A stretch of 38,252 bases of DNA from a virus. The notes beneath the pieces are model-generated. The model made no database searches, was not told the DNA's origin, and saw only the letters and a program-made list of their open reading frames with translations. The DNA lies in the IMG/VR virus record IMGVR_UViG_3300032893_000166, positions 1 through 38,252 of that record; one strand, 5' to 3'. Of the stretch, positions 457 to 21,667 are shown one piece after another; position 1 is the stretch's first letter, and each line of letters begins with the position of its first letter. Both the position numbers and the translations under genes were made by a program.

Positions 457-1401
457 CTATTTATCAAGCTCTTTTAAGATTCCGTATTCAACTATGCCAC
501 TCTTAAGTTTTTTGCAGGTGATAGTTTTTTCTTCATCAGTAATTTCTTTTTTCCATAAGGCTAGGCCAGCAAAAATTCGGTAGGCGACCTTGAGGGAGAG
601 TTTACAAGAGATTGATAGGCCAGCTTCGATACCCCAGCCAGCTTTGATACCCCCCGAGCCAGCTTTGATATCCTCGCCAGCTTCGATACCCTCGCCAGCT
701 TTGATACCCGAGCCAGCTTCGATACCCGAGCCAGCTTTGATACCCTCGCCAGCTTTGATACCCGAGCCAGCTTCGATACCCGAGCCAGCTTTGATACCCC
801 AGCCAGCTTTGATACCCCAGCCAGCTTTGATACCCCAGCCAGCTTTGATACCCCCCGAGCCAGCTTTGATACCCTCGCCAGCTTTGATACCCTCGCCAGC
901 TTCGATACCCCAGCCAGCTTCTATACCCTCGCCAGCTTTGATACCCTCGCCAGCTTCGATACCCCAGCCAGCTTCGATACCCGAGCCAGCTTTGATACCC
1001 CCCGAGCCAGCTTCGATACCCCCCGAGCCAGCTTCGATACCCTCGCCAGCTTCGATACCCTCGCCAGCTTTGATACCCTCGCCAGCTTCGATACCCCAGC
1101 CAGCTTTGATACCCCAGCCAGCTTTGATACCCTCGCCAGCTTTGATATCCTCGCCAGCTTCGATACCCCAGCCAGCTTCGATACCCTCGCCAGCTTTGAT
1201 ACCCTCGCCAGCTTCGATACCCGAGCCAGCCAATGACCGAATAAAACCTTTTATCTTGAGACTCTTGAAAAATACCCAACCCAAGTCTGCTGATATTTCA
1301 AGATTACCATCAAAATCAGTTAAGTCTTCTTTGCCTACGTATTCTTTGTAGTAACTATCAGTGTCTTTAAGGTCTTTTGCTGTAATTATTTTTGTTTTCA
1401 T
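457..1401 (-). CDS. Hexapeptide-repeat protein, probable beta-solenoid
   Basis: A 314-residue protein with three parts: a unique N-terminal region of about 55 residues (MKTKIITAKDLKDTD.. through SLAG), then about 33 copies of a six-residue unit I-(E/K)-A-G-(E/W/S)-G covering roughly residues 58-260, then a C-terminal region of about 55 residues rich in charged and aliphatic residues. A few units are seven residues long (AGSGG). An aliphatic residue every six positions with small residues between is the signature of left-handed beta-helix (hexapeptide) folds, so a rod-like solenoid is likely. The 18-bp DNA unit leaves the other frames open, creating long shadow frames on both strands. Proteins with this type of repeat occur in other environmental phages; the function is not known to me. 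Confidence 0.85.
   Translation of the reverse strand: MKTKIITAKDLKDTDSYYKEYVGKEDLTDFDGNLEISADLGWVFFKSLKIKGFIRSLAGSGIEAGEGIKAGEGIEAGWGIEAGEDIKAGEGIKAGWGIKAGWGIEAGEGIKAGEGIEAGEGIEAGSGGIEAGSGGIKAGSGIEAGWGIEAGEGIKAGEGIEAGWGIEAGEGIKAGEGIKAGSGGIKAGWGIKAGWGIKAGWGIKAGSGIEAGSGIKAGEGIKAGSGIEAGSGIKAGEGIEAGEDIKAGSGGIKAGWGIEAGLSISCKLSLKVAYRIFAGLALWKKEITDEEKTITCKKLKSGIVEYGILKELDK
619..1230. repeat. 18-bp tandem repeat array inside a coding gene
   Basis: About 33 near-identical 18-bp units (core ccagcttcgataccc or ccagctttgataccc, with variable ctc, cag or gag linkers and occasional 21-bp units). The array codes for the hexapeptide repeats of the gene 457-1401. Substitutions are mostly confined to one GAA/AAA codon (E/K) and one GAG/TGG/TCG-type codon, so the array evolves as a coding minisatellite and copy number may vary between strains. 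Confidence 0.95.
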
Positions 1402-4220: not shown

Positions 4221-4475
4221 CTAAGGGGTTAAACTCTTGTCTAATGGCAGTTTTGAGGCTTTGAGAGGCATTTTATTTGTTGGCACTTCTTCAAAACGAG
4301 TGATAGCGTGACCAAAGCGTTCACCAATGTATTCCGTTGCTTTTAATAATTTATTTGCTTTTTCTCTTTCTTTCGCCGCTTTGTATTGGCACTTCTGGCA
4401 GATACAGCCATGAATATTCCTCACTACTCGGATTTTTTCTAACTTTCCACCACAACGGTCGCAGAGAGTATACAT
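4221..4475 (-). CDS. Small zinc-ribbon protein, 84 aa
   Basis: The N-terminus has two CxxC pairs, CDRC (residues 5-8) and CICQKC (about 24-29), as in a zinc ribbon, followed by a charged helix (KAAKEREKANKLLKATEYIG). No further family is recognised. It sits 2 bp upstream of ninG and just after the 121-residue gene, so it belongs to the replication-recombination operon that starts near 5535. A nucleic-acid-binding or adaptor role would be typical but is inferred. Confidence 0.75.
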   Translation of the reverse strand: MYTLCDRCGGKLEKIRVVRNIHGCICQKCQYKAAKEREKANKLLKATEYIGERFGHAITRFEEVPTNKMPLKASKLPLDKSLTP

Positions 4476-6893: not shown

Positions 6894-7653
6894 GGGCTAC
6901 AGATTTTTGAAGGATGAACACCGCCATCAGATTTTGATTGATGAAGAATGGAAAGACCTTATTGGTATTTCTAGTGTAGTTAAAATCCTCACCAATTTCA
7001 GTCAAGCCGCCTATTATGGTTCTCGGAGAGCCTTGATGGGACTAGGTTACGATCCAAAAGACGCTCCAGAAGCTCTAAAAGGCTTTAGGAACGAAGTAAA
7101 TCGCATACTCACCCTAAACCCCGAAGAACAACAAAAAGCTCTTAAATCAGCGTATACGGCTCACGCAAAATACGCTAAAGACCGGGCTAAGAAGGGTACT
7201 GATAGCCATGAAATCTTGAATAAATGGGCACAGAAGTGTATTGAGGAAAACGAGGGAAAATTTTTGACCACAGGAAGTTTTTTGGCAGATGAACCAAAGG
7301 TGCAAAAATTTCTTGAGCTTGCTATTCCTCATATCGGAAAAGACGCACGGATAATCGCGAGTGAAAAGAAATCATATAGTGAGGAACTTTGGTTGGCTGG
7401 TATCACCGACCTCATTGTAGAAACTGCTGATGGAAAAATCGTTATTCTCGATTTCAAAGATCGGCCGGTAATCTATGAAAACGATTTACTCCAAATGGGA
7501 GGTTATTCGTTTCTTTTTCCTACTCCAATCTCATTCGTGCTTGGTGTTCCTCTTGAGGGCAAAGAAGCTCGCCCGTGGTTTGCGGTGGATAAACTACAAG
7601 AAGCCTTTAAGGGATTATTAACAGCATATAAGTTTCTTAATCAATTCAAATGA
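6883..7653 (+). CDS. PD-(D/E)XK exonuclease, RecB/Cas4-like
   Basis: 256 residues. The nuclease core is readable near the C-terminus: Glu161 (SEKKSY), GITDLI with Asp175, ILDFKD with Asp190 and Lys192, and QMGGY with Gln204 and Tyr208. An upstream GTDSHE with His109 is also typical of this RecB-like group. Phage enzymes of this kind resect double-stranded ends for single-strand annealing. The next gene encodes an SSB-like protein and NinG is in the opposite early operon, so together they form a minimal recombination set. The start ATG overlaps the previous gene; the end overlaps the next by 4 bp (ATGA). Confidence 0.85.
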   Translation: MSNKGYRFLKDEHRHQILIDEEWKDLIGISSVVKILTNFSQAAYYGSRRALMGLGYDPKDAPEALKGFRNEVNRILTLNPEEQQKALKSAYTAHAKYAKDRAKKGTDSHEILNKWAQKCIEENEGKFLTTGSFLADEPKVQKFLELAIPHIGKDARIIASEKKSYSEELWLAGITDLIVETADGKIVILDFKDRPVIYENDLLQMGGYSFLFPTPISFVLGVPLEGKEARPWFAVDKLQEAFKGLLTAYKFLNQFK

Positions 7654-9505: not shown

Positions 9506-9700
9506 CTAGTGCACGGCCACTTTCCTGGGCCAGTGCTCAAGTACGTAATCGGTCAGCCACCATGGAATGTCGCCTTTCTCACAGAACCGATTAAAGTAAT
9601 ATGAGACTGGCGTTATCTCGGCGTGAGCGGCCGCACGCTCAAAAAGAACTTTCGGTTCGATGTTGAACTCTTTACACGCGTCTACCACGATATTACGCAT
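9506..9700 (-). CDS. Hypothetical protein, 64 aa
   Basis: ATG at 9700 preceded by TAGGAG eight bases upstream, a strong Shine-Dalgarno site unlike most genes here. Residues EPKVLFERAAAHAEITPVSYYFNRF suggest a helical fold. Last gene of a three-gene leftward cassette that is more GC-rich than its surroundings. No family is recognised. Confidence 0.65.
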   Translation of the reverse strand: MRNIVVDACKEFNIEPKVLFERAAAHAEITPVSYYFNRFCEKGDIPWWLTDYVLEHWPRKVAVH

Positions 9701-9709
9701 GGTTTTCTC

Positions 9710-9910
9710 CTACATGGGTTCAAGCTCCACTTCAAACTCCTGAAGGGCAAAGGGCTTTGTGGTATGAGCGAGATAGTAGACAATTAAGTCTCCTACACTT
9801 GCTTCGCCCTCAATGCCTCGTTCCATTCGGTCTCGGTAGCAGAAGAAACGATTTTCTTCGCTCGTTGCCATTTGCACCAGAAGAAGAATTTGGTCTATTG
9901 AAAACAACAT
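9710..9910 (-). CDS. Hypothetical protein, 66 aa
   Basis: ATG at 9910 preceded by GGAGG at a good distance. Middle gene of the cassette, ending 9 bp before the next start. The N-terminal helix (MLFSIDQILLLVQMA) is amphipathic rather than membrane-spanning; the remainder contains acidic residues (EGEASVGDLIVYYLAH, EFEVELEPM). No family is recognised. Confidence 0.65.
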   Translation of the reverse strand: MLFSIDQILLLVQMATSEENRFFCYRDRMERGIEGEASVGDLIVYYLAHTTKPFALQEFEVELEPM

Positions 9911-10110
9911 TACTCGCCTCCGATCCTCTGCTGGACTATCCGCAGACAGTCCGTAGCAACTCCAGGAACATCACCACTTTCAATGGCGTGGTAGACAGCC
10001 TGAATCCACGATGGATTCTTTTCGCCGACCTCCTCGCAAATGCGATAGGCCAGCGTCCAGTTATCACGAATCTTGAAAATCTCCTTGAGAAGTTCAATGG
10101 TGGTTTTCAT
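9910..10110 (-). CDS. Hypothetical protein, 66 aa
   Basis: ATG at 10110 with AGGAGG six bases upstream. First gene of the cassette, overlapping the next by one base. Sequence features include a charged N-terminal helix (TIELLKEIFKIRDNWTLAYRICEEVG) and HAIESGDVPGVATDCLRI. No family is recognised. A 136-residue frame on the plus strand overlaps all three cassette genes but lacks an SD and is judged a shadow. Confidence 0.65.
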   Translation of the reverse strand: MKTTIELLKEIFKIRDNWTLAYRICEEVGEKNPSWIQAVYHAIESGDVPGVATDCLRIVQQRIGGE

Positions 10111-10139: not shown

Positions 10140-10145
10140 ATTATA
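10140..10145 (-). promoter_or_regulatory. -10 box of the three-gene cassette promoter
   Basis: TATAAT on the minus strand lies inside the last codons of the upstream 86-residue gene. Transcription would start near 10133, giving a 22-nt leader with an AGGAGG site ahead of the ATG at 10110. No convincing -35 is visible. Confidence 0.5.
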
Positions 10146-10401
10146 CTCTTTTTATCCCTGTAATTGATCGAGAGGGAATATAGACAATACAACTCCACTC
10201 TTTCATTCTGGGATTTGAAGAATGAGAAGCGGCTAGACAAGTGAACTGACCAAACGAACCTACAAAGTACCCCACTGTTTTTATGTAATCTTTTGATTTT
10301 AGAGCTAAATCTTTTATATCTTCTTCTTCCTCCCACGTATTTTGGTTAAAAGTATCAATCCATAAAATACAATATGATTTTCCCTTAACGAGTTTTTGCA
10401 T
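10141..10401 (-). CDS. Hypothetical protein, 86 aa
   Basis: ATG at 10401, exactly where transcription from the extended -10 box at 10408-10416 should begin, so the mRNA is probably leaderless. The sequence reads YCILWIDTFNQNTWEEEEDIKDL, then DYIKTVGYFVGSFGQFTCLAASHSS and CIVYIPSRSITGIKRV. This strand-rich layout with a C-terminal IP...I resembles small phage proteins of unknown role that I have seen annotated only as hypothetical. Confidence 0.65.
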   Translation of the reverse strand: MQKLVKGKSYCILWIDTFNQNTWEEEEDIKDLALKSKDYIKTVGYFVGSFGQFTCLAASHSSNPRMKEWSCIVYIPSRSITGIKRV

Positions 10402-10428
10402 TGATTTATTATAGCACTGGTATATAAT
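10401..10428 (+). promoter_or_regulatory. Rightward promoter of a short RNA
   Basis: -35 TTGATT (10401-10406), 16-base spacer and perfect -10 TATAAT (10423-10428). The start would be near 10435, and a terminator follows at 10470-10504, leaving no room for a normal gene. Confidence 0.6.
10408..10416 (-). promoter_or_regulatory. Extended -10 promoter, leaderless
   Basis: Minus strand TGCTATAAT, followed by 6 bases and the ATG at 10401. It is back to back with the rightward promoter at 10401-10428, so the two share sequence and might exclude each other. Confidence 0.65.
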
Positions 10429-10434
10429 GAAAAT

Positions 10435-10504
10435 GCAATCATAAATGATTGTGGTGGCAAAGGGAACCGAAACCCCACTTTTAACGAGATGGGGTTTTTG
10501 TTTT
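10435..10504 (+). ncRNA. Candidate small RNA, about 70 nt
   Basis: Bounded by a promoter and an intrinsic terminator. It contains a first hairpin CAATCA (10436-10441), loop TAAA, TGATTG (10446-10451), an unpaired GTGGTGGCAAAGGGAACC stretch and the terminator hairpin. A 21-codon frame (10445-10510) exists but runs through the terminator stem, so coding is unlikely. Target or role cannot be read from the sequence. Confidence 0.5.
10470..10504 (+). terminator. Intrinsic terminator of the rightward small RNA
   Basis: AAACCCCA (10470-10477) pairs with TGGGGTTT (10490-10497), followed by a T-rich tract (TTTTTGTTTT overlapping the stem end). It faces the leftward terminator at 10508-10549. Confidence 0.8.
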
Positions 10505-10507
10505 GAA

Positions 10508-10549
10508 TAAAAAAAACTCCTCTGAACCGGAGGGTGGGGTTCAGAGGAG
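10508..10549 (-). terminator. Strong intrinsic terminator of the leftward late/RNA unit
   Basis: On the minus strand a 12-bp perfect stem, CTCCTCTGAACC with GGTTCAGAGGAG (10517-10528 / 10538-10549), is followed by eight Ts. It is the strongest terminator in the window and marks the end of leftward late transcription and of the RNA at 10508-10717. Confidence 0.92.
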
Positions 10550-10717
10550 AGAGAGGTAGTCAGTCCTTGACTGGGCCAACCGTGGCCAACGAGTGAACTG
10601 TTGATGGGCTAATGATAACCCGTATCCACGGGCAGGAGAGTTGTACAGGCTCTCATTAGTCCACCAATCTGCTGAAAGATTAACACCGTAGCTTCTATTG
10701 AGCAAGCGTGAACGGGC
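10508..10717 (-). ncRNA. Candidate structured RNA, about 210 nt
   Basis: The unit starts after an extended -10 (10724-10732) and ends at the terminator 10508-10549. Between them the bases fold into many short perfect helices: 10561-10565/10569-10573, 10574-10578/10583-10587, a three-way junction (10609-10613/10655-10659 enclosing 10619-10623/10628-10632 and 10636-10640/10650-10654), 10666-10670/10677-10681 and 10691-10694/10704-10707. Almost every segment is paired. A 64-codon TTG-started frame spans it, but its content has no protein-like character and ends in the terminator stem. No known RNA family is recognised. Confidence 0.65.
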
Positions 10718-10723
10718 AGGAAA

Positions 10724-10732
10724 AGTATAGCA
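10724..10732 (-). promoter_or_regulatory. Extended -10 promoter of the 210-nt RNA
   Basis: Minus strand TGCTATACT, partly overlapping the tail of the lysin terminator. No -35 match is seen at 16-18 bases. The same TGC extension occurs at 10408-10416. Confidence 0.55.
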
Positions 10733-10752
10733 CAAAAGCCCCTTTCGGGGCT
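10733..10752 (-). terminator. Intrinsic terminator of the lysin gene
   Basis: Minus strand AGCCCC, loop GAAA, GGGGCT, then TTTG. The stem (10737-10742/10747-10752) is GC-rich with a stable GNRA loop. The U-tract is short, so some read-through into the 210-nt RNA is plausible. Confidence 0.75.
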
Positions 10753-10792
10753 AGTGTGCTTGAAAACTATATCCGTCCGTTGAGGGGCACAT

Positions 10793-11137
10793 TTATTCTA
10801 CCGACCCATTCTTAATCCTGCAAACACGGCTGGCGGTGTAGTCGGCTAATCGGTTACGTTCTATCAGATGAAAGGCGTAGACCATATTGTCGGGCATTAT
10901 ACGGGGATTTAGGCCCATGCTTTCAGCTTCGCCGAAATGAATGTCATTTATTTGGAATAACCCCCAATCAATCGTGCCGTTCTTGTTTCGGTTGGTTGAG
11001 GTAATATCCCATCCCGATTCGCACTCTACGAGCCAATAAAGGGTCGTGGTGGAGATAGAAAGCGGATGATCGGCATAGTAATCGAATACCTCCTTTTCTA
11101 GGGCCTGATGAGGCGTGGTAGAGGCTACGGAGACCAT
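10793..11137 (-). CDS. Lytic transglycosylase-like lysin (SLT fold)
   Basis: The catalytic region reads LYWLVECESGWD, with Glu in ECESGW as the likely general acid, then IDWGLFQINDIHF, the GLFQIN segment typical of lysozyme-like transglycosylases. It would cut the peptidoglycan glycan strand during lysis. From the ATG at 11137 the protein has 114 residues and no export signal. The same frame, however, stays open upstream to a TAG near 11340 and encodes a convincing signal peptide (see 11138-11305) but has no ATG, GTG or TTG there. I give the conservative start. The gene follows the giant RNA and ends in its own terminator. Confidence 0.75.
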   Translation of the reverse strand: MVSVASTTPHQALEKEVFDYYADHPLSISTTTLYWLVECESGWDITSTNRNKNGTIDWGLFQINDIHFGEAESMGLNPRIMPDNMVYAFHLIERNRLADYTASRVCRIKNGSVE

Positions 11138-11305
11138 ATTAGGCGATTGGCTAAATTGGTCGTGAGTTTCATGAGAAACGTTGCCAATGACAACCGTATT
11201 GCCTTTTACGTCAGAGTAAGCAGTCTTGGGTCTAATATCAGCCGAATCGGTAACTATGAGAAGGAAAACAAGAAAAATAACAAGGCTTTTTAAGTATTTG
11301 ATGAT
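11138..11305 (-). other. In-frame N-terminal extension of the lysin with signal peptide
   Basis: Codons upstream of 11137 read KYLKSLVIFLVFLLIVTDSA and continue through DIRPKTAYSDVKGN into the annotated start. This is a typical signal peptide: two lysines, a 15-residue hydrophobic core, a polar end. The only near-cognate starts are ATC codons at 11305 and 11302 (and ATT further in), with AGAGA about 14 bases upstream of the first. Either initiation is non-canonical, or a base is missing or substituted in the assembly. Confidence 0.6.
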
Positions 11306-11314
11306 GGTTAAACT

Positions 11315-12133
11315 ATCTCTTGCCGTGCTAGAGATGGGCTAAATCGAGGATTCTGTGGACTATCCAATAGTTTATGTGACGAAAATCACAACCACCAGTC
11401 CTCCTCGATTTAACCCACCTCGTTCATTATTCGGTCTGCGTGATATTCGACGAGAATCTCACTAGACTTGCCTCGTGTGGTATTTGTTCACGGACTAAGA
11501 TATGGCGGTGACTCAATCATTTCATCACAACGAGGGAGGTCGATGGGCTTTTATTTTTGCAACCTTTACGCTCCCAAGCGTATCAGAAGGGGCTTGCCTG
11601 ACCGTCGGCATCTTGCTCAAAATAGGACACCATTCCCCGCATTGTACAATTTAGAATGGCTGTTTAACCCTCTGGCCTCATTCACAGTTTTGGAGGCACT
11701 TTCGTAGTGTAGATAGAATTGAATTCTTTCCCCTCGAACTTGGTTTCGGTTTGACCTTTCTCCATCCCCAATGCACTATGCCCACTACAGCGTTATTATG
11801 CGACACCATATTTTAGTCAATGAACAAGTGAGATTCCTTTGGTGAAATGCGGTCTAGCAGTACTATGCCACCTACTATATCGTGGTATCCGTTGGGAATT
11901 GGTTGGGAGTACGACTTCCGTTCTTATCCCCTTTCGATGCCTAGGGCATAACAGCATACGGACACGGAACTAGCTAGCTCCCGCCACGCCACCGCACTTC
12001 ATCAAAAGAACCTCCGAGATTCCCTCACAGGCACGATTGAATGGAGTGTCGATCTGGTTTCCCCAAAGGGAAACGAGTCGCCTTATTGATTATTCGGCGA
12101 ACACCTTCAATCGTGCCTGGCAGGGAACCTCAT
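11315..12133 (-). ncRNA. Giant ornate structured RNA, GOLLD/ROOL-like candidate
   Basis: About 815 bases without a credible gene but full of long helices. 5' domain: 12122-12131 pairs with 12016-12025 (10 bp, one G-U), enclosing 12106-12119/12028-12041 (14 perfect bp) and hairpins 12096-12100/12078-12082 and 12068-12074/12057-12063. Middle: 11976-11981/11966-11971, 11945-11949/11937-11941, 11783-11788/11704-11709, 11693-11697/11675-11679, 11654-11659/11630-11635, 11577-11582/11567-11572 and 11530-11535/11471-11476. 3' domain: 11402-11416/11336-11350 (15 bp, one G-U) enclosing a three-way junction; a last hairpin 11330-11335/11315-11320. In three helices the odd pair is G-U on the minus strand but A-C on the plus strand, fixing orientation; two weaker hairpins favour the other strand. 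Its own promoter lies at 12138-12166. GOLLD RNAs are about 800 nt, phage-borne and expressed in lytic growth; homology itself is not proven. Confidence 0.8.
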
Positions 12134-12137
12134 AGTT

Positions 12138-12166
12138 ATTTTACCCCTACTTAAAAAAGTCTACAA
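12138..12166 (-). promoter_or_regulatory. Promoter of the giant RNA
   Basis: Minus strand -35 TTGTAG (12161-12166), 17-base spacer, -10 TAAAAT (12138-12143). The start falls near 12131-12133, exactly at the first base pair of the 5' domain of the RNA, which supports both calls. Confidence 0.65.
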
Positions 12167-12186
12167 GGGCGGTACTTGCCTCATCA

Positions 12187-13029
12187 TTATGAGAACAATC
12201 TTTGTAATGCATTCACAAATATACTCCACCAGTCTTGGGGCTTCGGTGGTAGGATGTTTCGCTCAAACGTGAACGCGTCGATGATATATCCACTATCAAA
12301 GTATTCTTGAGTGATGAATTGATGGCCTCTAAATCCTATCTGGTCGCCCCACGAATTGATAAAATCTATAGAATTAAATCCGTTGACAATTCGGGCCGAT
12401 ACACAACAAACAAAATGATGCCAAAGAGGATTGGGGTTTCCTTTTTGAGGTGGTTGCGGATAGGGAGAAAGCCACGAGGGATTATTTCCGTTCTGTCCAG
12501 TGATTTCCATGATGACAAACCCATAGTCTCGTATCGCTTCGGCAAATGATTCTATATCTCTACCTACCGAAAGCGCTCTCCAGCCGGCCTTTTCAAGAGC
12601 GTTGATAACATTTGTTTGATTTTCCCATGACCTATCAGTGAGATTAGCTTCGGTTGGTGGTTGAGATGGTACAAGGGCTTCATCAGCTACCCCTTTGTTT
12701 ATGACCTGCTTTTCAATTGCTCCTGTTGTTGTCCCACCACCCGGATACACAATATCACTATAGATACTTTTAGCTGAAAGTTCTTTGTATGGTGGTTTAG
12801 AGAGGGCTAGGGCGATTGCGATAGCGTATGAAGCCGATTGTCCCCCACAGCTTGAGCTTTGGCCTTGGTCTTTAATGGGAATATCTAAACCTTTTGTACT
12901 ATCTACTCCCACTGACCAGTTAAAAGGAATAGAAGACCGTCCTACTCTCGAACGAACAATTCGCCGAATTTTTGTCTTGATGGGTGAGTGGATTGCCCCA
13001 TTGCCGTGTTTGTTTTCAGAGAGAATCAT
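12187..13029 (-). CDS. Papain-like (C1) cysteine peptidase
   Basis: 280 residues with a full C1 triad: Gln55 and Cys61 in IKDQGQSSSCGGQSASYA, His204/205 in PLWHHFVCC and Asn225 in DFINSWGDQIG. There is no signal peptide and no obvious propeptide; about 30 basic residues precede the catalytic domain (IKTKIRRIVRSRVGRSS). The C-terminal WWSIFVNALQRLF is amphipathic. The gene overlaps the holin-like gene by ATGA and lies between fibres and lysin, so a lysis role (cutting peptide cross-links or surface protein) or virion maturation are the main options. C1 enzymes are unusual as phage endolysins. Confidence 0.88.
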   Translation of the reverse strand: MILSENKHGNGAIHSPIKTKIRRIVRSRVGRSSIPFNWSVGVDSTKGLDIPIKDQGQSSSCGGQSASYAIAIALALSKPPYKELSAKSIYSDIVYPGGGTTTGAIEKQVINKGVADEALVPSQPPTEANLTDRSWENQTNVINALEKAGWRALSVGRDIESFAEAIRDYGFVIMEITGQNGNNPSWLSPYPQPPQKGNPNPLWHHFVCCVSARIVNGFNSIDFINSWGDQIGFRGHQFITQEYFDSGYIIDAFTFERNILPPKPQDWWSIFVNALQRLFS

Positions 13030-17812: not shown

Positions 17813-19887
17813 TTTAATCGGGTAGCACTTCCATCCGTGTTTACAACAAACATCATGCCGTTTGAATTAATAGTTTGAGTAGTAGGAATAGGAACACCAG
17901 CAGCATTTGGAATTAATGAATGAAGGGCATCATTTAAATAACCTTTAACTGTTGCTATTTTGTTTAGACCATCTTTTAATGTATCTCCACCAACAGCCTG
18001 TCCTATCGATTTTTTGAATTGTGGTAGAGAATCTCCAGAAATACTACTTGTAAATTGAGATAGTCTTGAACTACCAGAAATAATTTTTAAACTATTAAGA
18101 GCAGCCTCAAATGTCCCAGTTTGATATGCTTTTACTTTTGAGCCATAATCCGTATTGAATATCTTACTCCAGGGTTCGATTAAAGCCGAACCAATCTTCC
18201 CCGCTGGCCCGAATGGAGCAATTTCAGAAAACTTTGATTGAACCTGGTTAATATTTGCAATAGCAGTATCAAGAGACTGTAAATCGCTTACCTGTGAAGA
18301 AGAAAGAATAGGAATGTTATTCTTTGAGGCATAATTCTGAGCAAGAATTTTAAGATTGTCTGGAATTTTGCTTTGGTCAATATATACATCCCCAGTTGAG
18401 TTGGTAAAGCTCATTGCCGGTTGCAACATTGCAGGAGCTTGAGAAATAATCTGATTAGCGGTTGATGTAGAAGCCGGCTGATTTTCTTGACCAATTTTTG
18501 CTGCTGCTGTAGAGTCCTCATTTTTAGCTACTGCTAGAGCAAACGGACGAATATTATTGGTAAAGTTTCCAATTTGAGTAGTTACTGGTACGCCAAGCTG
18601 TGAAGCAATTGACTGGGCATACGCCACGGGGTCATTTCCATCAGATTTCGGAGCATAGACATTTGCAAAATCCTGAATAGTGCTTTGAGGAGTAAGACTA
18701 GTAGAAGTCGCGCCAGTCATTTTAGCTTTTAAATCATCTTCAAGCGCCTGAAATCCAGCTTGCATAGTAGGAAAAGACTTAAATGTTCCGTCAGGATTTT
18801 TTAGATTACCAGGATTATTATTAGCAACCGCTGGAGTTGTCCCGCCGCCATTAAATGACTGACCGTTATTGTTTCCACCAACAATCTGACCAGTTTTAGC
18901 ATTGAATACAATTGGCTCTCCGGTAGCTGGGTCAGTGGTGATTTGGAAGTTACCGCTTGTAAGATAACCTTGAGCGGCTGAAACCGCATCAGGTACAGTA
19001 GCGGCATTTCCCATGGCTTTAATAACATCCTGTGGGGCGCCATTTTGAGCGGCCTCTACCTGAGCTTGACCAATTAATGTTCGGTCTTGCTTTTGAATAT
19101 CATACTGCTGCTGTTGAACCTGTAGATTTGCTTGGAATTGTCTATCTTGAGCCTTAGTAAATAAATCCTTATTATCATTATAGAATTGTTGAGCAGTTGC
19201 CAATTGTGTCTGAAGGGGAGCAAGTTCTAATTGAACTTTATGGTCTACAATTCCTTGAGCAGCAGTAATATATCCAGAAAGAGCTAATTGTTGGATTGAA
19301 AGATTGGCAATATCAATATTCGCGACACGAGTTAATTCTTGAACTTGGTCTTGTACGCCCGCCTGAGTTGCACCGGAACTGTTTAAAGCTGCAATCTTTT
19401 GCTGTAATTCAAACTTTTTGGCATCAATTTGAGAGGTAATATCTTGCAATTGAAGCGTTTTTTCTGGGATTTGATAATTCTCCTCAAGAGCTGGTTGAGT
19501 CTTTTGAACACCGGTAATACCTTCTACAAGACTTTGGACATCACTTTTTGAGGCATTAAGATTTGCTTCGGCGGTTGCTTCAGCTTGGTCTTGTTGAGAT
19601 TGGATATCTGTTTTGATTTTATTATTCCAAAAATCAGTAGCAGCGCTTGCTCCAATAGGAGAAGTTTCAACTGGATTAGGACTTACAATCGCAGGTTTTG
19701 GAGGTGTTTGAATATCTGTTGCAGAAGGCGAAGTTTCAACTGGAGTATTATTAATAATTGAATTTACATCACTAGGAGTGAGCGGTTTTGAAGGAGAACT
19801 GATACTTCCAGGAGTAACCGGCGCCAGTGTAAGTGGTGTTGTCGATGGTGTTGCCCCTCCCTGATAGACTGTTTTATCGTTTTCCAT
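17809..19887 (-). CDS. Internal virion protein with lysozyme-like domain, 692 aa
   Basis: Residues 1-100 are disordered (Pro/Thr/Ser), 100-280 form long Gln-rich coiled coils (QQDQAEATAEANLNASKSD.., QVQQQQYDIQKQD), and about 355-450 carry a domain starting NNNPGNLKNPDGTFKSFPTM, with FQALEDDL and FANVYAPKSDGNDPVAYAQ. The NNPGN(L/I) .. F..M..GF.AL .. YAP..(E/D)NDP motif string belongs to lysozyme-fold domains in phage virion proteins (P5-type). It would open peptidoglycan during genome entry. The remaining C-terminus is helical. Confidence 0.75.
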   Translation of the reverse strand: MENDKTVYQGGATPSTTPLTLAPVTPGSISSPSKPLTPSDVNSIINNTPVETSPSATDIQTPPKPAIVSPNPVETSPIGASAATDFWNNKIKTDIQSQQDQAEATAEANLNASKSDVQSLVEGITGVQKTQPALEENYQIPEKTLQLQDITSQIDAKKFELQQKIAALNSSGATQAGVQDQVQELTRVANIDIANLSIQQLALSGYITAAQGIVDHKVQLELAPLQTQLATAQQFYNDNKDLFTKAQDRQFQANLQVQQQQYDIQKQDRTLIGQAQVEAAQNGAPQDVIKAMGNAATVPDAVSAAQGYLTSGNFQITTDPATGEPIVFNAKTGQIVGGNNNGQSFNGGGTTPAVANNNPGNLKNPDGTFKSFPTMQAGFQALEDDLKAKMTGATSTSLTPQSTIQDFANVYAPKSDGNDPVAYAQSIASQLGVPVTTQIGNFTNNIRPFALAVAKNEDSTAAAKIGQENQPASTSTANQIISQAPAMLQPAMSFTNSTGDVYIDQSKIPDNLKILAQNYASKNNIPILSSSQVSDLQSLDTAIANINQVQSKFSEIAPFGPAGKIGSALIEPWSKIFNTDYGSKVKAYQTGTFEAALNSLKIISGSSRLSQFTSSISGDSLPQFKKSIGQAVGGDTLKDGLNKIATVKGYLNDALHSLIPNAAGVPIPTTQTINSNGMMFVVNTDGSATRLK

Positions 19888-19888
19888 A

Positions 19889-21667
19889 TTAATTATAATT
19901 ACCGTAATTAGCTAAGTTCAGATTGGGTACTTCCTCAATGTTAAGGTCAATAAATTCGTTATTGCCAGTAAACAACATACAAACTTTTATCTGAATCCAA
20001 CCAGAACTAGTTGTGATATTAAACATTGGGTTGGTATTACTTTGATTTGTCAGGGTTCCTACCCACTTCCAATGCTGGAAGCGCACCTTACTCGTTCCAT
20101 TTGAGGCCCCTAAGGTATCATCAAGAGTAACTACCCATGTACCAGAGTTATTATTGATTGAAGTAATAACTGCACATTTTCCCGAACCTGGGCCCTGTGT
20201 TCCCTCTACTTCTTCACCTTGTGAATAGGCTGATATATCAGTCGTGGTAGTAAAACTTGTAGAAGAAGTCCACGTCACAGTAACCGGTTCAAGAGCAGGG
20301 ATATCTTGCGAGCGCGCCTTTACGATAACTCGGTCGGTACTGTTTAAAAGTTTTCGTATTCTTAAAAATGTCCTTCCAAATGCATCCTGCACTCTCGGAG
20401 AAAGAATTTTATTTGTTACAAAATATCCATATTTTTGGATAGTATCAAGAGAATCATTTGTCCACGCGGCGCTTACTGTGCTTGAGGTGGAATCGCTAAA
20501 ATAATCAGCACCCGCGATTAAAGTACCTACAATTGGTGAACCAATATCAGGAACTTTGATATTTGCAAGTGCTCCGACACGTGAAATCCTATTTTGGCCA
20601 TAATCATTAATCGTGGCCCCGATAATTGTATATTGAGTGAGGGCATTTTTATGATACCAACCCATGTCTACGTCATATTCCCAAATACCAGAGGGCAATG
20701 ATTCTTGAATAGTCTTATTTAAATCGTAATTTTCATTGTTAATGAGTATATTGATACGTCCATCAACCAAGGTTATTCCATTAGGATGAATCCAACGATT
20801 ATTAAGAAGAGTATTAGGATTTTTGAGATATTTGAATTGCTTTATCGGCAATCTTCCGTTAGGTGCAAGCACAAAAGCTTGACCATTAAAGTATTGAAGC
20901 TTTCCATCCATATCAATAATATAAAGCACGCCATCTTTTACAATTCCTGCAAGAGCACCGCGAGAATCTAGTGGATGAATATCTGTCGGAGTATCGGCCG
21001 TTGCTCCATCCCAGCTATATACATAGCCCTGACCATTTTGTTGATTAAAAGTTAAAATCCATAAAAGATTTGAGGTCTGCACTAGAGAAGTAATAACTAA
21101 ATCCTTATTCTTTATCAAGAAGCTATTCGACCCACTTGTTGCGAATGATTCACCGGTATCCATTGAGATAATCTGCTGGTTTGTCGTTACAATATAAAGT
21201 CGATTAAGTTTCAGAAAATTCAACATCTTCGAATTAACTGAAACACTCAAACTCGAAAGACCTGTCCATGTTGTAGTATCTAAACGCCAAAAACTAGCTG
21301 ACCCACTTCCAACTGCATATAATCGATTATTAAATACTTCTAAATCGGAGATATCTGAAGAGAAAGAATTTCCTGGAGAGTTTGTTTGAGCATCTTTTAC
21401 AAAAGCAGTCTCAAGATTTCCGCCGGCCGCTCGAAATATATAGTTACCAGCAATAGTGTATAAATTGGAGAGATATTCTTTAAAAGCAACAGGAGTCCCA
21501 AAATCAGTTATACCATTTGTGGTAATAACCATTCTCGGTGATACTTTCGTTTTTCCAAGCTGTTCGGTGAGATTAAGATTAAAAGATGAAAAAAGGCTTC
21601 CGACAACATCGCTTCGGTTATTTTGTTCCCATAATCGTCCACCCGATACGCTTGGTAAAGTAATCAT
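19889..21667 (-). CDS. Tail nozzle / stabilization protein (beta-propeller)
   Basis: 592 residues made mostly of repeated short strands with propeller-like blade motifs (NLYTIAGNYIFRAAG, NRLYAVGSGSASFWRLDT, GVLYIIDMDGKLQYFNG, GIWEYDVDMGWYHKN). This resembles podovirus nozzle or stabilization proteins (T7 gp12, P22 gp10 class) that extend the tail tube. It is followed in transcription by the internal virion genes and preceded by tail decoration genes, as expected. Confidence 0.72.
   Translation of the reverse strand: MITLPSVSGGRLWEQNNRSDVVGSLFSSFNLNLTEQLGKTKVSPRMVITTNGITDFGTPVAFKEYLSNLYTIAGNYIFRAAGGNLETAFVKDAQTNSPGNSFSSDISDLEVFNNRLYAVGSGSASFWRLDTTTWTGLSSLSVSVNSKMLNFLKLNRLYIVTTNQQIISMDTGESFATSGSNSFLIKNKDLVITSLVQTSNLLWILTFNQQNGQGYVYSWDGATADTPTDIHPLDSRGALAGIVKDGVLYIIDMDGKLQYFNGQAFVLAPNGRLPIKQFKYLKNPNTLLNNRWIHPNGITLVDGRINILINNENYDLNKTIQESLPSGIWEYDVDMGWYHKNALTQYTIIGATINDYGQNRISRVGALANIKVPDIGSPIVGTLIAGADYFSDSTSSTVSAAWTNDSLDTIQKYGYFVTNKILSPRVQDAFGRTFLRIRKLLNSTDRVIVKARSQDIPALEPVTVTWTSSTSFTTTTDISAYSQGEEVEGTQGPGSGKCAVITSINNNSGTWVVTLDDTLGASNGTSKVRFQHWKWVGTLTNQSNTNPMFNITTSSGWIQIKVCMLFTGNNEFIDLNIEEVPNLNLANYGNYN

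Follow-up and report, generated by a model that had tools for sequence, protein, structure and literature searches.

Results

A predicted short transcription unit downstream of the lysin gene

In the 38,252-nt virus record IMGVR_UViG_3300032893_000166, the whole of which was analysed and is called the window here, a minus-strand segment between the lysin gene and an operon of small genes is a probable ordinary phage small-RNA unit, whose interest lies in its recurrent promoter architecture. More specifically, we give an even chance to the reading that a promoter fused to the lysin terminator produces this segment, RNA2, as a short, separate non-coding RNA of the phage. The segment ends in a strong terminator and carries no coding signal, and its promoter/terminator architecture recurs in related records.

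The window contains a terminase (PHROG match, 2.7e-31) and, on the minus strand, genes that are presumably portal- and capsid-like, judging from synteny and size. The lysin frame has its first ATG at 11137 and stays open further upstream; its Pfam matches (Lys, 2.6e-4; SLT, 2.1e-3) are both below the curated cut-off, and its distant relatives are found in G074 and G075. Along the minus strand, the lysin stop is followed by a hairpin, an extended −10, a body of ~168 nt, and the strong terminator, and then by the next operon (Table 1). Strong Shine-Dalgarno sites, which most genes of the phage lack, precede three of the four small genes that follow RNA2 (9506-10110, minus).

Table 1. Coordinates of the features at the RNA2 locus and of its surroundings
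Feature	Position	Strand	Basis and remarks
Window	1-38,252		Whole virus record
Lysin gene, lysozyme/SLT-like	10793-11293	minus	Pfam, frame, relatives; N terminus signal-peptide-like
Hairpin AGCCCC-GAAA-GGGGCT + TTT	10737-10752	minus	Putative weak terminator closing the lysin transcript; directly fused with the promoter that follows
Extended −10 TGCTATACT	10724-10732	minus	Without good −35; predicted RNA2 start ~10718
64-codon TTG frame	10541-10735	minus	Judged not a gene from dicodon score, no usable Shine-Dalgarno, start position
RNA2, predicted short non-coding transcript, ~210 nt	10508-10718	minus	Promoter/terminator bounds, coding score, fold
Long imperfect hairpin, arms 10601-10624 / 10644-10667	10601-10668	minus	Fold z-score; inverted repeat I1
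CU-rich stretch ACUACCUCUCU, predicted unpaired	10550-10560	minus	Unpaired probabilities; candidate seed just before the terminator
Strong intrinsic terminator	10509-10549	minus	Stem 10517-10549, U8 10509-10516; top score of 3 in the window
Predicted convergent small RNA, ~70 nt	10434-10505	plus	Terminator 10469-10498; promoter TTGATT-16-TATAAT 10401-10428
Extended −10 TGCTATAAT of the next operon	10408-10416	minus	String search and sequence
Next operon, small genes	10401 to 9506	minus	Downstream of RNA2
86-aa gene, first of the next operon	10141-10401	minus	Nearly leaderless

The terminator comprises 12 perfect pairs, a 9-nt loop, and eight T. With a score of 36.3, it is the highest of only three candidates on the two strands of the window, while the best scores in five block shuffles range from 0 to 28.1, confirming the earlier note's description of a 12-bp terminator that is the strongest present. 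RNA2 thus has the Rho-independent terminator with a long U tail (U8) that is expected of a phage small-RNA unit.

A dicodon model, for which long frames from the window and from relatives served as the training set, gives the 64-codon frame 0.05, as compared with roughly 0.2-0.7 for window genes with clear homologues. This difference carries a caveat, since low scores can also come from short early-type genes that relatives carry in this region (0.12, G013). The frame opens with a TTG in the region of the post-lysin hairpin, before the point at which the transcript is predicted to start; no Shine-Dalgarno sequence was found at a usable place, and the frame has no PHROG match. The low dicodon score and the lack of a usable ribosome-binding site are as expected of a phage small-RNA unit, and the evidence that the RNA2 segment is non-coding is strong but not absolute.

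A terminator-fused extended −10 recurs in relatives

The post-lysin hairpin is followed by just TTTTGTGC, and terminator-like matches of its kind are at chance level in the window (4 found versus 3.8 expected in shuffles). The extended −10 proposed in the earlier note is present behind it, as a fair match in a short intergenic stretch, but no good −35 was found upstream, and as a string alone it is near chance (7 such sites versus 3.5 expected). For the own promoter expected of a small-RNA unit, RNA2 has as its candidate an extended −10 alone, near chance as a string, which together with the hairpin forms a composite that is enriched in relatives.

We oriented 41 records (1,277,706 bases, window included) by their late genes. 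In these records, TGnTATAMT is over twofold more frequent on the late strand (104 sites) than on the other strand (46 sites). A GC hairpin and T's directly precede 8 of the 104 late-strand sites, as compared with 49 of 3000 random positions (~1.7 expected). The eight composites are in the window (G000), G003, G033, G053, G054 (two), G058, and G072, and two more, in G003 and G071, are on the other strand. Furthermore, 3 of 8 records (G000, G009, and G053; 0.07 expected) carry TGnTATAMT in the interval from −20 to +100 relative to the last late gene, a count for which the eight late ends were hand-chosen after the G009 site had been noticed by eye.

In G054, the lysin gene is followed by a terminator and then by TTTTGTGCTATAAT, almost identical to the window's TTTTGTGCTATACT, and the small gene driven by this composite lies 33 nt further along. 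Composites likewise drive genes almost directly at the second G054 site, in G072, and in G071, where the gene is a lysin almost without leader. The composites of G053 and G058 precede a lysin-gene leader of 170-250 nt. An extended −10 (promoter 4126) sits where the last late gene of G009 ends; behind it come ~260 nt lacking any coding frame (z −3.1 for this non-coding body), a strong terminator (4365-4396, score 34.2), and then a further extended −10 and the next gene, an order of elements identical to that of the window. An extended −10 followed by a strong terminator at 60-420 nt is found at 6 of the 104 late-strand sites versus 63 of 4000 random positions; among those six sites, an intervening frame of at least 60 codons is absent only in G000, G009, and G072.

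An iterated lysin profile built from four seeds matched 18 frames in related records, most of which lack both elements, composite and extended −10, in their vicinity, indicating that the arrangement is recurrent, not universal. Nothing comparable was seen at the lysin-like loci L165, L166, and L168.

The excess stability of the segment is carried by two hairpins

The whole 210 nt folds better than its dinucleotide shuffles (z −3.39, 1 of 200 as good; z −3.48, 1 of 300, on repeat), a level (z −3.4) that is reached by 1 of 51 coding 210-nt windows of the late strand. The excess stability is carried by the terminator, which alone has a z of −7.0, and by the 68-base hairpin 10601-10668 (z −4.29; 0 of 300 shuffles as stable, for an element selected after the fact), the sole body element that folds better than shuffles. 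The 5′ 49 nt have a z of +0.4. The comparison with shuffles suggested in the earlier note thus favours the segment as a whole but not its body without the terminator (10551-10717), which has a z of −1.23 and is equalled by 36 of 300 shuffles. The bases had been described as almost fully paired, with a three-way junction; the paired fraction is 58%, as compared with 55% in 100 mononucleotide shuffles, and the junction is rejected, since at −20.9 kcal/mol versus −28.7 kcal/mol it is 7.8 kcal/mol less stable than a single long hairpin. To call the segment a richly folded RNA is overstated. The strand is not given by the fold alone, because the whole segment is nearly as stable when folded as its plus strand (z −2.6, versus −3.5 for the minus strand).

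In a sliding scan of the window, 10426-10575 (z −5.3) and 10501-10650 (z −4.0) are among the better minus-strand windows, ranking behind the giant RNA and the repeat gene. The repeat gene (457-1401, minus) encodes a 314-aa protein made mostly of ~35 six-residue repeats, G-I-E/K-A-G-x, in 18-base DNA units, and gives the strongest folding of the window (600-1300, minus; z −9.9).

The CU-rich stretch ACUACCUCUCU pairs with 52 tested gene starts of the window no better than its own shuffles do in a duplex test, nor does RNA2 as a whole pair above the level of shuffles with either the plus-strand RNA or the giant RNA.

Neighbouring RNAs

The giant RNA region (11294-12186, minus; ~890 nt, non-coding; z −8.8 versus shuffles) precedes the lysin gene, which separates it from RNA2, all on the same strand, as the earlier note had placed them. 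A 32-nt piece of the giant RNA is 87.5% identical to G051 near position 7553, in a structured gap upstream of the terminase region, and shorter pieces match G037 and G003; judged by these matches, the giant RNA may possibly belong to an RNA family. The 10-mer TTAGCCCATC, common to RNA2 and the last hairpin of the giant RNA, occurs 5 times in the 41 records versus 2.4 for shuffled motifs and is not convincing as a shared motif.

On the plus strand, the terminator of the predicted ~70-nt RNA is the second best in the window, and its promoter is one of 6 promoter-like sites found versus 6.2 expected. That promoter overlaps the divergent promoter of the 86-aa gene.

Structured non-coding gaps were also seen elsewhere in the relatives. 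G003 (oriented 19786-20583) and G035 (oriented 339-681) share 111 bases at 72% (E 2e-9) in such gaps upstream of the terminase. In G013, a 333-nt gap after a holin-like gene (L051, 15075-15407, minus; z about −6) is closed by a long outer stem and runs up to a gene that has a strong Shine-Dalgarno site.

Search for homologues of RNA2

The terminase search of IMG/VR yielded 41 loci and the capsid-like search 80. BLAST with the RNA2 segment in related records (30 + 50 records) returned only chance matches of 14-32 bases; 50 of 74 capsid-relative loci were searched with RNA2, the other 24 being mostly short contigs. No homologue was found by a 20-mer search of IMG/VR or by nhmmer in 18 records. 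A covariance model, as the earlier note had proposed, recovered no homologue either: built from the single sequence given twice and hence without covariation, it matched just itself and its own antisense palindrome in 18 relatives, and nothing in 50 further records (some overlapping the 18; no positive control). Nothing was found for the RNA2 locus in phage GenBank records by distant blastn, or in IMG/VR by way of the lysin, the peptidase-like neighbour, or a downstream small gene; among genome contigs searched with a major-capsid-like alignment, there was no genome with the capsid-like protein and nothing for the locus.

The window has no Rfam match at the gathering threshold, sub-threshold matches in 10400-12300 are at chance level, and Rfam on six pieces of relatives gave two tRNAs and nothing else; GOLLD, ROOL, and other Rfam RNAs are rejected as the identity of RNA2, there being no covariance-model match. 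In the relatives closest in gene content (G013, G009, G005, and G031), there is other DNA at the place of RNA2, or the record ends before it. A partly narrow literature search on lysis-linked phage RNAs found no description of the locus.

Discussion

We propose that the late (structural/lysis) transcript would end after the lysin gene at the hairpin fused to the extended −10, which would restart transcription, and that RNA polymerase would then transcribe ~210 nt before stopping at the window's strongest terminator, leaving the next operon insulated and starting from its own promoter. In the product, flexible short parts would accompany a single long hairpin, and a CU-rich single strand would lead up to the terminator hairpin, which carries the U8 tail. 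Such a layout is the usual one for a bacterial or phage regulatory small RNA. We infer promoter activity, transcript ends, and stability for RNA2; as a stable terminated transcript, it may base-pair with mRNA, a function that is a guess. Of the interpretation in the earlier note, the separate short non-coding transcript (~10718 to ~10508) is retained, given the architecture repeated in relatives and the non-coding frame, while the three-way-junction RNA is abandoned.

The main rival, somewhat unlikely in our judgement, is an ordinary 3′ UTR: the late mRNA would read through the weak post-lysin hairpin and end at the strong terminator, so that the 210 nt would form an untranslated tail on the lysin/late mRNA, shielded at its 3′ end by the hairpin, and no separate RNA would exist. 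No other clear late-strand terminator lies between the late genes and the next operon, the post-lysin hairpin has the short tail and the chance-level frequency described above, and in G003, G009, and G019 a strong terminator also lies 220-480 nt past the last called late gene (in G003, the stretch before it seems on inspection to contain a small gene with a Shine-Dalgarno site). However, an extended −10 exactly behind the hairpin, in a composite enriched in relatives, is not what a plain 3′ UTR would call for. The post-lysin promoter could instead serve the operon 10401-9506, with RNA2 as an attenuated leader whose terminator is a gate opened by an anti-terminator protein or an RNA switch. Q opens lambda tR′ in this way, by anti-termination. 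The small gene close behind the post-lysin composite of G054, the leaders behind those of G053 and G058, and the strong Shine-Dalgarno sites after RNA2, unlike most of the phage, speak for such a leader; we nevertheless regard it as improbable, since an extended −10 of its own stands before the downstream gene, the predicted fold shows a stable terminator stem with no competing antiterminator pairing seen in it, and no antiterminator gene was identified.

The near-equal folding of the two strands, together with the divergent and convergent signals crowded at the locus, would also fit a double-stranded DNA element (an origin, packaging, or recombination site) whose palindromes act as DNA, but we found one 10-nt direct repeat only and no iterons, and the terminator T run is on one strand only, making such an element very improbable. 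Least probable of all is a small protein gene: the frame is open for 64 codons, but its dicodon score, its TTG in the hairpin region, and the lack of a PHROG match argue against it.

Phage small RNAs are listed in a review (PMC12197685), and lambdoid phages make small RNAs between PR′ and tR′ (PMC7873438). Like StxS and the other PR′-tR′ RNAs, RNA2 would be a short transcript running from a phage promoter to a strong terminator at a lysis/late junction, upstream of another operon (PMC7873438). In contrast, theirs, as described there, is a default-terminated late leader with its promoter before the late genes, whereas the RNA2 promoter follows the lysin gene, the genes past RNA2 are small and non-late, and there is no Hfq or Q evidence for RNA2. 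RNA2 sits after the lysin gene and not between a late promoter and late genes, with the small-gene set 10401-9506 downstream, and because its position differs we do not assign it to the PR′-tR′ class.

Small-RNA dyads between lysis genes and the late promoter are described for at least eight lambdoid phages of one strain (PMC7873438). Like AgvB/EcOnc06 and AsxR/EcOnc27, RNA2 and the ~70-nt plus-strand RNA would be two short RNAs by lysis genes, predicted on opposite strands with convergent terminators, and may by analogy form a comparable dyad; RNA2 differs in coming from an unrelated phage lineage, in its place after the lysin gene, and in being predicted only (PMC7873438). GOLLD and ROOL are likewise non-coding phage RNA regions without an assigned function, and GOLLD expression rises during phage lysis (PMC12286853), but these RNAs are large and heavily folded, whereas RNA2 has 210 nt, one notable hairpin, and no Rfam match. 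By analogy, RNA2 would most likely work at most like the PR′-tR′ RNAs or the small-RNA pairs of lysis genes.

More broadly, we put forward tentatively, as an unlikely extension, that an uncultivated tailed-phage family may use terminator-fused extended −10 units, several of them round the lysin gene, to emit short non-coding RNAs or structured leaders, with position and architecture conserved and sequence and fold free, and that RNA2 and its plus-strand partner would be a fast-evolving regulatory member. RNA2 by itself is an ordinary kind of phage feature. If real, it would be an added case of a small-RNA unit adjacent to lysis genes, from a phage family in which no cultured member was found, and the terminator directly fused to an extended −10 would be usable for finding transcript boundaries in such genomes.
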